Assembly (NCBI GenBank): GCA_029265615.1
Contig: JAJUIB010000013.1
Span: forward strand, 1-64,000
From: Spirochaetota bacterium
GTDB taxonomy: Bacteria > Spirochaetota > Spirochaetia > Treponematales > Rectinemataceae
DNA length: 64,000 bases
Reading direction: 5' to 3'
In this document: positions 18,960 to 28,734 of the stretch, piece by piece
Layout of the letters: each line of letters opens with the position of its first letter
Numbering within the stretch: the stretch's first letter is position 1
Notes under the pieces: generated by a model
Told to the model about the DNA's origin: nothing
Database searches by the model: none
The model's input: only the letters and a program-made list of their open reading frames with translations
Translations under genes and position numbers: made by a program

Positions 18960-18988
18960 ACTATAATGTCGGCATCGCGCTTTGTCAA
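18960..18988 (-). promoter_or_regulatory. Strong sigma-70 promoter for the glycosidase gene
   Basis: TTGACA (18983-18988) and TATAGT (18960-18965) on the minus strand with exactly 17 bases between them. The leader would be about 95 bases. Confidence 0.75.
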
Positions 18989-19100
18989 ATTGAAACGCGA
19001 GCCTACTGCACAGAACAGAGTCACTTTCAGTATAGCATTAGTCATGCCTTTAGTGGGAAATTATCGCCTGATCTTTCTCTCATAAAACTCCCACCATGAC

Positions 19101-19128
19101 TTGACAATTGCGTAAAAAACGCTACCTT
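19101..19128 (+). promoter_or_regulatory. Promoter of the structured RNA locus
   Basis: TTGACA (19101-19106), 16 bases, then TACCTT (19123-19128). The start would be near 19135. Confidence 0.55.
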
Positions 19129-19134
19129 TGATCT

Positions 19135-19472
19135 TGCAAGGAGGAACGTCAGGCAGTGCGGCAACCCATTCGTGGGACCGCGGTTTTCCGACCCGAACGG
19201 ACGAGGAGGGCCTATATGGACACTCCGCCTGAGAGTTCCGGGCCGGCTTGAGGCCGGCCATCTGAGTGCGAGCGATTTTTTCGCGGACAAGCCCGTCAAG
19301 GGCGAGCCACGCAAGGGATGGGTCGAGCCTCGTGGGCTCGAGAATGCTTTTTTGAAGGCATTGCCTGTTACGGTGGTCCACAAAAGTATGAGGCCCGAGA
19401 GCCTCAGGCCGCGTAGCGGGGCGAAAAAGGGGGTCGGCGCATGGTTTTCCGCGTCGGCCCCCTAGCATTTTT
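19135..19472 (+). ncRNA. Candidate structured non-coding RNA of unknown family, about 340 nt
   Basis: This gene-free stretch has its own promoter and a strong terminator, and between them nearly every segment can fold. Visible stems are: a UUCG-capped hairpin at 19158-19181 (GCGG, CCCA, loop TTCG, TGGG, CCGC); a 7-bp stem at 19241-19247 with 19253-19259; short hairpins at 19291-19303, 19324-19340, 19390-19405 and 19409-19419; and a long-range 10-bp pairing of 19150-19159 with 19358-19367 (one G-U pair). The long-range pairing competes with a local hairpin at 19343-19362. I do not recognise RNase P, tmRNA, 6S or a known riboswitch. Frames crossing it (19172-19465 plus, 19061-19468 minus) look like chance. 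It could also be the attenuator leader of the gene at 19555. Confidence 0.55.
19429..19472 (+). terminator. Terminator of the structured RNA locus
   Basis: A 12-bp stem (19429-19440 with 19451-19462, two G-U pairs) with a 10-base loop is followed by TAGCA and five T. Confidence 0.85.
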
Positions 19473-19554
19473 AAACGGAGCCGACTAGGATGCGGACGCG
19501 TGGCGCGGCACCACGCGGTAAAGCGAAGGGCCGCACACGCCGATAGGGATAGCG

Positions 19555-19929
19555 ATGATTGTAACGCTCTTCAAAACCGGCAAGGACGGCAAGCTTCTCT
19601 ACTACACCGTCCATGACCGGCAGGCCAGCCTCATAAGCCCCTATGCGCTCACGCTCTCGTGGCGCGTGGGGAATGGCCGCGAGCGCTCGCGATTCTATCC
19701 CTTCGACTCGCTCGCCGAGATGGACAAGATGATCCGGGCCGTGCTCCAAAAACGTTTCAAAGACGGCTATCGGCTCCTTTACAGCTTTAGCCGCGATGCG
19801 CGCTGGAGCGAGCGCCTCGATCCCACAGAGGTGCGCCCCGCAAGCGAGCAAGCTCAGGAACAGGGCGGGAGGGGCGGCGGCCTTCTCGCACGAGCTGCGG
19901 AGGCGCACAAGCGGCTTGCAACCGGCTAG
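19555..19929 (+). CDS. Small conserved-type hypothetical protein
   Basis: A 124-residue protein that I cannot assign. The first 85 residues look like a compact folded domain rich in aromatics (MIVTLFKTGKDGKLLYYTVH, then SWRVG and FYPFDSLAEMDKMIRAVLQK); the last 35 are Gly/Ala-rich and probably disordered. It has no signal peptide or membrane segment. The layout resembles WGR-like or similar small beta domains, but the match is too weak to name. It follows the structured RNA terminator by 80 bases and is convergent with the sensory hydrogenase gene. No good ribosome binding site is visible before ATG 19555. Confidence 0.7.
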   Translation: MIVTLFKTGKDGKLLYYTVHDRQASLISPYALTLSWRVGNGRERSRFYPFDSLAEMDKMIRAVLQKRFKDGYRLLYSFSRDARWSERLDPTEVRPASEQAQEQGGRGGGLLARAAEAHKRLATG

Positions 19930-27980: not shown

Positions 27981-28081
27981 CGAAGCCAGGCGGTCTGCGG
28001 CACCGTCTCTTCCGCTTACCGTTGCTTCCTTCCGGACCTGGCGGGGTTGGGCGGCGCCCACGTGCGCAGTGCCTGGCTTCC
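27981..28081 (-). ncRNA. ffs: Signal recognition particle RNA (4.5S type)
   Basis: About 101 nt. The conserved Ffh-binding apical loop is exact on the minus strand: CCAGGTCCGGAAGGAAGCA, with the GGAA tetraloop and the asymmetric loop with AGCGG on the return strand. The ends pair over 10 bp (GAAGCCAGGC with GCCTGGCTTC). It lacks the Alu domain, so it is the short bacterial form. It works with Ffh and FtsY to target membrane and secreted proteins. It lies 24 bases after a serine tRNA and before dnaX, a common bacterial neighbourhood. Confidence 0.95.
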
Positions 28082-28104
28082 GACGTTCGAAGGGGATCGG
28101 ATTG

Positions 28105-28191
28105 CGGAGAGAGAGGGATTCGAACCCTCGGTACCGTTACCAGTACACACGACTTCCAATCGTGCACCTTCGACCGCTCGGTCATCTCTCC
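28105..28191 (-). tRNA. tRNA-Ser(GGA)
   Basis: An 87-nt class II tRNA with a 7-bp acceptor (GGAGAGA/TCTCTCC), T loop TTCGAAT in a GAGGG/CCCTC stem, anticodon loop TTGGAAG and a long variable arm. Discriminator G; CCA is not encoded. It reads UCC and UCU. Confidence 0.95.
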
Positions 28192-28246
28192 GAGATGGCG
28201 ACTTAGCTATTTTTACTTCCCCCTATTCCGGGGCGCGCACAACAAC

Positions 28247-28333
28247 CGGAGAGAGAGGGATTCGAACCCTCGGAACCCTGACGGGTTCAACGGTTTTCGA
28301 GACCGCCCGATTCAACCGCTCTCGCATCTCTCC
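28247..28333 (-). tRNA. tRNA-Ser(CGA)
   Basis: A class II tRNA with the same acceptor stem as tRNA-Ser(GGA), anticodon loop CTCGAAA, long variable arm and T arm GAGGG-TTCGAAT-CCCTC. It reads UCG. CCA is not encoded. Confidence 0.95.
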
Positions 28334-28342
28334 AATAAAAAA

Positions 28343-28416
28343 TGAGGCAAAGAGGATTCGAACCTCCGACCTTCAGATCCGCAATCTGATGCTCTATCCA
28401 GCTGAGCTATTGCCTC
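28343..28416 (-). tRNA. tRNA-Arg(GCG)
   Basis: A 74-nt tRNA with acceptor GAGGCAA/TTGCCTC, D arm GCTCAGCTGGATAGAGC and anticodon stem TCAGA/TCTGA around the loop TTGCGGA, so the anticodon is GCG (reads CGC and CGU). Discriminator A; CCA is not encoded. GCG is unusual, since bacteria normally use ACG edited to ICG. Confidence 0.9.
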
Positions 28417-28469
28417 ATGAAACCCGTCGCGGGACAACCCCGCATCGCCTATAAAAGAACCCTGCCCTT

Positions 28470-28486
28470 CCCCCGCTCGGCGGGGG
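28470..28486. repeat. GC hairpin in the tRNA spacer
   Basis: CCCCCGC, TCG, GCGGGGG within the 114-base spacer between tRNA-Arg and tRNA-Ser(GCT). It may guide processing of the transcript. Confidence 0.4.
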
Positions 28487-28530
28487 CCTCGATTCGAATC
28501 CCCCCATCGGACGGAAAAGGAAAACGGCAA

Positions 28531-28618
<88 letters not shown>

Positions 28619-28632
28619 AAATCGGCCACGTC

Positions 28633-28717
28633 CGGAGCGAGTGGGATTCGAACCCACGGCGCCTTTCGGCGCAACGGTTTTCAAGACCGTCACCATAGAC
28701 CACTCGGACACCGCTCC
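28633..28717 (-). tRNA. tRNA-Ser(TGA)
   Basis: A class II tRNA with acceptor GGAGCGG/TCGCTCC (one G-U), anticodon loop CTTGAAA, variable arm GCGCC/GGCGC and T arm GTGGG-TTCGAAT-CCCAC. It reads UCA and UCG. It is the first gene after the cluster promoter. Confidence 0.95.
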
Positions 28718-28734
28718 AGCGGTTGTGGTACCCC

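Follow-up and report, generated by a model that had tools for sequence, protein, structure and literature searches.

A candidate stand-alone RNA gene of spirochaetes carrying a conserved Met-(Asp/Glu)-x-Pro-Pro micro-ORF

Introduction

Positions 19101-19472 of the DNA analyzed here (the window, 64,000 nucleotides of a spirochaete contig) hold a densely structured locus upstream of a small conserved gene that begins at position 19555. Is this locus an RNA gene in its own right or an attenuator of that gene, two alternatives that the initial annotation had left side by side, and what could the RNA do? Our leading interpretation, held at slightly less than even confidence, is a single-copy stand-alone small RNA gene whose central working part would be a translation-aborting micro-ORF, with the ribosome switching an RNA that acts in trans.

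Results

Organization of the locus

The predicted elements follow one another on the plus strand in the order promoter, structured leader, Shine-Dalgarno (SD) sequence, micro-ORF, hairpin, further hairpins, and terminator (Table 1). The promoter was read as in the initial annotation, with TTGACA at 19101-19106, a spacer of 16 nt, and TACCTT at 19123-19128; since the second hexamer matches in only three of six positions, it was not listed by a simple promoter scanner. Promoters of the same type (TTGAnn or TTGCnn, N16-18, TAnnnT) occupy the equivalent position in nearly all relatives. The previously described 12-bp terminator stem is formed by 19429-19440 and 19451-19462 and is followed by a T-run. 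Across copies, the predicted RNA comprises approximately 250-340 nt and is longer in some genomes of family f1. These signals support a stand-alone RNA gene with its own, putative transcript.

Two larger ORFs, 19172-19465 on the plus strand and 19061-19468 on the minus strand, were rejected: the 97-aa frame over the locus has no Pfam match, and large indels occur among relatives. Elsewhere in the window, positions 27981-28718 of the minus strand encode four serine tRNAs (GGA, CGA, GCT, TGA), one arginine tRNA (GCG), and the SRP RNA.

Table 1. Predicted features of the RNA locus and of the adjacent gene
Feature	Position	Strand	Basis and conservation
Sigma70-type promoter TTGACA-N16-TACCTT	19101-19128	+	Sequence; equivalent upstream of relatives
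Predicted transcript, about 340 nt	19135-19472	+	Start predicted from promoter; promoter/terminator geometry; MFE z -4.4
5' strand pairing with micro-ORF codons 4-8 (19227-19239), closing the start region	19143-19154	+	Pair probabilities 0.95-1.0
5' hairpin CCCA-UUCG-UGGG	19165-19176	+	Retained as CCCA[U/C][U/C]CGUGGG by several copies of f1 and f4
SD sequence GGAGG, predicted mostly paired	19205-19209	+	Found in each of the 44 copies, once as GGGGG; 4-9 nt spacing
Micro-ORF, 11 codons and TGA, MDTPPESSGPA	19216-19251	+	M-(D/E)-(N/T/A)-P-P in 44 copies; early in-frame stop
Hairpin GGCCGGCU-UGA-GGCCGGCC, beginning at +26 of the micro-ORF	19241-19259	+	Register shared by relatives
f1-typical 3' domain: AAGGGAUGGG, hairpins 19323-19341 and 19343-19362	19313-19363	+	Covariance model R1, three covarying pairs, one match per genome in ten f1 genomes with gene 19555
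Long hairpin CCUGUUACG/CGUAGCGGG	19364-19420	+	MFE; relatives have an equivalent hairpin with another sequence
Intrinsic terminator	19429-19472	+	Sequence; terminator equally placed in relatives
Sigma28-like promoter of gene 19555, TAAA-N16-GCCGATAG (outside the RNA)	19519-19546	+	Pattern match
Neighbouring conserved gene 19555 (outside the RNA)	19555-19929	+	No Pfam match

Distribution of the RNA

A DNA search combined with the orthologues of gene 19555 yielded 13 loci, all with the RNA between a divergently transcribed glycoside hydrolase gene and the 19555 orthologue, and an order-wide protein search brought this set of neighbourhood copies to 16. All 16, chosen without the use of a motif, have a promoter and an SD-preceded M-x-x-P-P frame. 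The combination of SD, start codon, and Pro-Pro was then scanned for in 394 genomes of the order, which gave further copies in families f4 and f5 outside the neighbourhood of gene 19555, and a relaxed scan of f3, apparently the Treponemataceae, gave 17 more; reversed-pattern controls had 2 to 5 matches each, versus 27, 8, and 21 in the motif scans. No convincing copies outside the order were found by motif scan of 326 genomes of the phylum. The resulting 44 copies, some of which come from incomplete MAGs, belong to four families (f1, f3, f4, and f5) of one spirochaete order, apparently the Treponematales.

Covariance model R1, built on the two 3' hairpins, matches once in each of the ten f1 genomes containing gene 19555, and the 20 f1 genomes lacking this gene also lack the RNA by this search. 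The remaining R1 matches are weak (20-26 bits) and were discarded; L086, inspected as an example, has no such RNA. With the upstream gene as an anchor, the RNA was absent from the equivalent interval in g25, g22, and G041. It is missing from many genomes of the order and is thus not essential to the order as a whole. Probably, the RNA dates far back in the order, is carried as one copy by each genome that has it, and has repeatedly been lost.

On the minus strand, the glycoside hydrolase gene of the window is preceded by a strong, divergently oriented promoter at 18960-18988 (TTGACA-N17-TATAGT), and a similar TTTGTCAAA...TATA stretch is seen upstream of this gene in relatives.

Fold of the RNA and the variable 3' domain

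The dense structure claimed earlier for the locus, including its UUCG-capped 5' hairpin, was recovered: the minimum free energy is -160.8 kcal/mol (z -4.4), and none of 100 shuffled sequences was equally stable. Closing helices GGAAC/GUUCC similar to those of the window are visible in several f1 relatives. In the predicted ensembles, the SD sequence has a mean unpaired probability of 0.23, its preferred partner being CUCC of codons 3-5, and the start codon is more open (0.51).

A 10-bp pairing of 19150-19159 with 19358-19367 had been proposed as one state of a long-range switch. The ten complementary pairs do exist, but the helix is not predicted to form: its probability is about zero and the fold containing it is 8.9 kcal/mol worse, because its 5' strand pairs with the micro-ORF instead (Table 1). 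The pairing is not kept in relatives, so the two-state switch finds support neither in ensemble folding nor in comparison. With an assumed ribosome, and only then, the helix appears in the window RNA (probability 0.09-0.11 with the ribosome at codons 4-5, 0.89 at codon 7); under the same assumption it is absent from most relatives.

Covariation supports helices in two families. For f5, 13 of 27 pairs are changed on both sides, versus 5.1 +- 1.5 in shuffles (0 of 500), and for f1 the R1 alignment has three covarying pairs in the 3' hairpin; in f3 the signal is weaker (5 of 30 pairs, with a covariation term close to zero). The 3' domain differs from family to family, yet within a family it covaries, pointing to a structural role or to a partner specific to the lineage. 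One alternative to our interpretation starts from this domain: the RNA could be a trans-acting base-pairing or protein-binding small RNA with the 3' domain as the effector, and the ORF could be secondary or a dual-function add-on. Besides the covariation, this is favored by L152 of family f5, where an RNA located just downstream of the gene match on the minus strand retains promoter, 3' domain, and terminator without the micro-ORF, so that the RNA can exist without it. However, the 3' domain differs across families, and the constant parts are the ORF start and its hairpin. We regard this explanation as unlikely, though it deserves more weight than the others considered below.

The micro-ORF

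The initial annotation saw no convincing protein at the locus, which proved incomplete: the SD sequence and the conserved micro-ORF had been missed, and together they are the most conserved part of the RNA across the order. ATG is the start codon in 40 of the 44 copies, GTG in two, and TTG in two, both replacements occurring in genus g17. Codon 2 encodes Asp (22 copies) or Glu (19), and codon 3 Asn (18), Thr (17), or Ala (8); an acidic residue is often found at codon 6 as well. Codons 4 and 5 are Pro in all 44 copies, with third-base entropies of 0.94 and 1.53 bits, respectively, versus zero at the first two bases. At codon 4, CCG (34), CCC (8), and CCA (2) are used and CCU, the best complement to the SD sequence, never; at codon 5 the third base is free (CCT, CCG, CCC, or CCA). 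Codons 7-8 are not conserved, and the length varies from 8 to 28 codons. In 28 copies the search patterns imposed part of this conservation; the 16 neighbourhood copies were under no such constraint.

The frame closes early, at a median of 10 and a maximum of 23 codons after the Pro-Pro, versus medians of 33 and 22.5 in the other frames; short-frame selection among the motif matches favors early stops, but the 16 neighbourhood copies are free of it, and in all of them the micro-ORF is closed within 20 codons. The start-codon swaps, the third-base-only variation of the Pro codons, and the early frame closure all argue for translation. At the same time, the Pro codons are complementary to the SD sequence, so part of their conservation could act at the RNA level. 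A programmed frameshift at the Pro-Pro and the hairpin was rejected, as neither +1 nor -1 has a conserved long frame.

A hairpin lies in a fixed register to the micro-ORF. Its 5' end falls at +24 to +29 from the start codon in 37 of the 44 copies, 29 of these at +25 or +26, whereas 24% of shuffled controls have a hairpin start in this interval; the register was defined by the strongest simple hairpin nearby in a simple-stem search, and the counts are not independent since the sequences are related. The mean energy of the register hairpin is -11.1 kcal/mol, versus -6.1 kcal/mol in shuffles, that is, approximately 5 kcal/mol more stable. The stop codon may be anywhere from +27 to +87, hence it is the start codon, not the stop, that fixes where the hairpin lies. 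Counted from the first nucleotide of the codon in the P site, the toeprint edge of a ribosome is approximately 15-16 nt away; an edge at +25/26 would therefore mean that the P site is occupied by codon 4, and one at +28/29 that it is occupied by codon 5.

Could the locus simply be a small mRNA for a functional micropeptide M(D/E)xPP..., with a structure that merely protects the message? The conserved translation signals are consistent with this, and in genus g74 the remaining residues also show partial similarity (RRxTG). This similarity, however, coincides with the hairpin CGCCGGAGAGAAACCGGCG, the micro-ORF of f5 ends before the hairpin, and beyond codons 5-6 both residues and length (8-28 aa) are free. 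Conservation of only the first five residues makes a functional peptide unlikely, and we consider this explanation clearly improbable. Still less probable is the opposite extreme, in which GGAGG...CUCCNCC is an untranslated structural hairpin and a pure RNA motif. The predicted pairing of the SD sequence mainly with CUCC of codons 3-5 agrees with it, but the avoidance of CCU at codon 4, the GTG and TTG starts, the alternation of Asp and Glu, and the early in-frame stops do not.

Genes adjacent to the RNA

The product of gene 19555 (consensus YYTxHDRQPxLxxPYALTxAWRxGxGRERE) occurs in 32 of the 394 genomes of the order and has no relative among solved structures in PDB. The gene is preceded by TAAA-N16-GCCGATAG, which we take to be a sigma28-type (flagellar-type) promoter, and its start codon is located 8 nt past GCCGATAG. 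The pattern T(A/C)AA-N15-16-[G/T]CCGAT was found in 11 of 20 orthologues, and most of the others show just the CGATA box. Some orthologues (in L035/L052, L036, L038, and L057) are at other genomic places and have no RNA immediately before them; the GCCGATA box that is usual for the gene was likewise not seen in three of these (L036, L038, and L057).

In copies away from gene 19555, the next gene is a radical SAM gene, or the neighbours are convergent, including an RRM-type and a chemotaxis-receptor-like gene as judged by eye from translations. The RNA is followed by the radical SAM gene (CxxCPRxCGxNRNxGE) in many f3 and some f5 genomes (L102, L103, L134, L136, L138-L143, L150, and L151), and where the flank was read, the upstream gene is conserved and ends like TLTxLMxxLVSRGxLD.

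An attenuator or leader of the downstream gene, as had been suggested for gene 19555, would agree with the ten f1 genomes in which the RNA is always directly upstream of and codirectional with the gene, and with the other 20 in which neither is present. This role is nevertheless scarcely tenable: a sigma28-like promoter of its own usually lies between the terminator and the gene, and orthologues in L045, L046, and L050 have no RNA, which makes dependence of the gene on read-through from the RNA promoter improbable; in addition, many RNA copies are found next to different genes or to convergent ones. The other suggestion, a new stand-alone RNA, is borne out by the promoter and terminator of its own, the lack of an Rfam match (see below), the presence in four families as a single copy per genome, and the variable next gene, which is convergent in several lineages.

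Comparison with known RNAs

No match at the gathering threshold of Rfam (release 15) was obtained at the locus or in 20 related loci, in accord with the initial annotation; below the threshold, the locus has only matches with chance-level E-values. An earlier description of the RNA was not found in open-access full texts (supplements not covered). A tmRNA is similar in size class and has an internal ORF, but the tRNA-like domain is absent here: ARAGORN found no tmRNA at the locus, nor does the locus match RF00023, and the tmRNA of this genome is on contig C21 (127 bits).

A CsrB-like sponge RNA binding CsrA/RsmA is the least credible alternative: although GGAGG and AUGGA are conserved and ANGGA is mildly enriched outside these (83 versus 55 +- 8), GGA is not enriched (243 versus 254 +- 11), and the ANGGA sites are more paired than average (0.26 unpaired versus 0.38), unlike the many ANGGA motifs in hairpin loops of CsrB/RsmZ-type RNAs.

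The dual-function small RNAs SgrS/SgrT and RNAIII are likewise stand-alone, with their own promoter and terminator and a short ORF in a structured RNA. The spirochaete RNA shares this organization as far as its sequence signals go, but the peptides of SgrS/SgrT and RNAIII are functional and conserved, whereas here only M-(D/E)-x-P-P is conserved (residues 1-5) and the length varies.

The uORF candidates odc1, uORFC-8-2, and ilvB also have conserved SD, start, and stop within covarying stems, but they are defined by a constant downstream gene, which the spirochaete RNA does not have; none from Treponema is described in the survey texts (PMC8632094, PMC11109978).

The closest architecture is that of the enterobacterial MgtL, MgtP, and MgtQ, tiny ORFs with an acidic codon 2 and/or early prolines within alternative stem-loops (PMC8092293). 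With acidic and proline residues near the start, as in MgtQ and MgtL, the ribosome aborts and the RNA refolds; with Asp2/Glu5, for instance, translation of MgtQ aborts and RNA folding changes (PMC8092293). Near-start stalling or destabilization of the ribosome is the signal in these systems (PMC8092293), whereas here such pausing is only proposed. The likeness is one of architecture: the Mgt ORFs belong to operons of Mg2+ transporters, where they lie in leaders or between genes, whereas the spirochaete RNA ends at a terminator. It has the short ORF with early acidic and proline residues in a structured RNA, and the genes downstream differ or are convergent. The RNA may thus work like a translation-aborting leader ORF yet is no member of that class as defined, since it has no constant downstream gene.

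Discussion

The locus combines transcription signals of its own, a conserved architecture, covarying helices, and a hairpin in a fixed register, and it has no constant downstream gene. As judged from sequence, the Met-(Asp/Glu)-x-Pro-Pro start and the hairpin look like an arrangement built for a ribosome to pause or fall off soon after starting.

According to the interpretation that we favor, the RNA would be produced from its own promoter, and a ribosome would bind GGAGG, initiate at AUG (or GUG or UUG), and reach the Pro-Pro within five codons. When codon 4 or 5 occupies the P site, the leading edge of the ribosome would lie approximately where the stable hairpin begins, at nt 25-27. Given the early Pro-Pro, the acidic codon 2, and this hairpin, the ribosome may pause or drop off near the start. 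At consecutive prolines, short nascent chains are more prone to peptidyl-tRNA drop-off, which EF-P relieves (PMC8934632). In E. coli, stalling at TPP and APP can be weak, and TPPP is a weak staller (PMC4176338); the hairpin may compensate for such a weak Pro-Pro context.

Without a ribosome, the start region would be closed by pairing of the SD sequence with codons 3-5 or of the 5' strand with codons 4-8; a ribosome would open it, and loss of the ribosome would let it close again. Translation could thus set the state of an RNA acting elsewhere, the presence or loss of the ribosome switching the fold, stability, or availability of this RNA, with a possible regulatory role in trans. No conserved trans-acting seed was found in the RNA.

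More speculatively, the RNA may represent a class that catches and releases ribosomes, in which the start site, the Pro-Pro drop-off, and the registered hairpin form a sensor of early elongation that switches a trans-acting RNA and not a downstream gene. We consider this generalization rather doubtful; as a part of it, EF-P activity, charged tRNA-Pro, Mg2+, or the ribosome state would be candidate inputs.

The annotation of the locus is corrected to a conserved, predicted transcription unit that has no gene call by size and belongs to none of the RNA families searched. If the proposed mechanism is true, translation-aborting micro-ORFs, hitherto known as cis-acting leaders, would extend to a free-standing RNA gene, and such a gene would have been kept in several families of an order with few characterized small RNAs.
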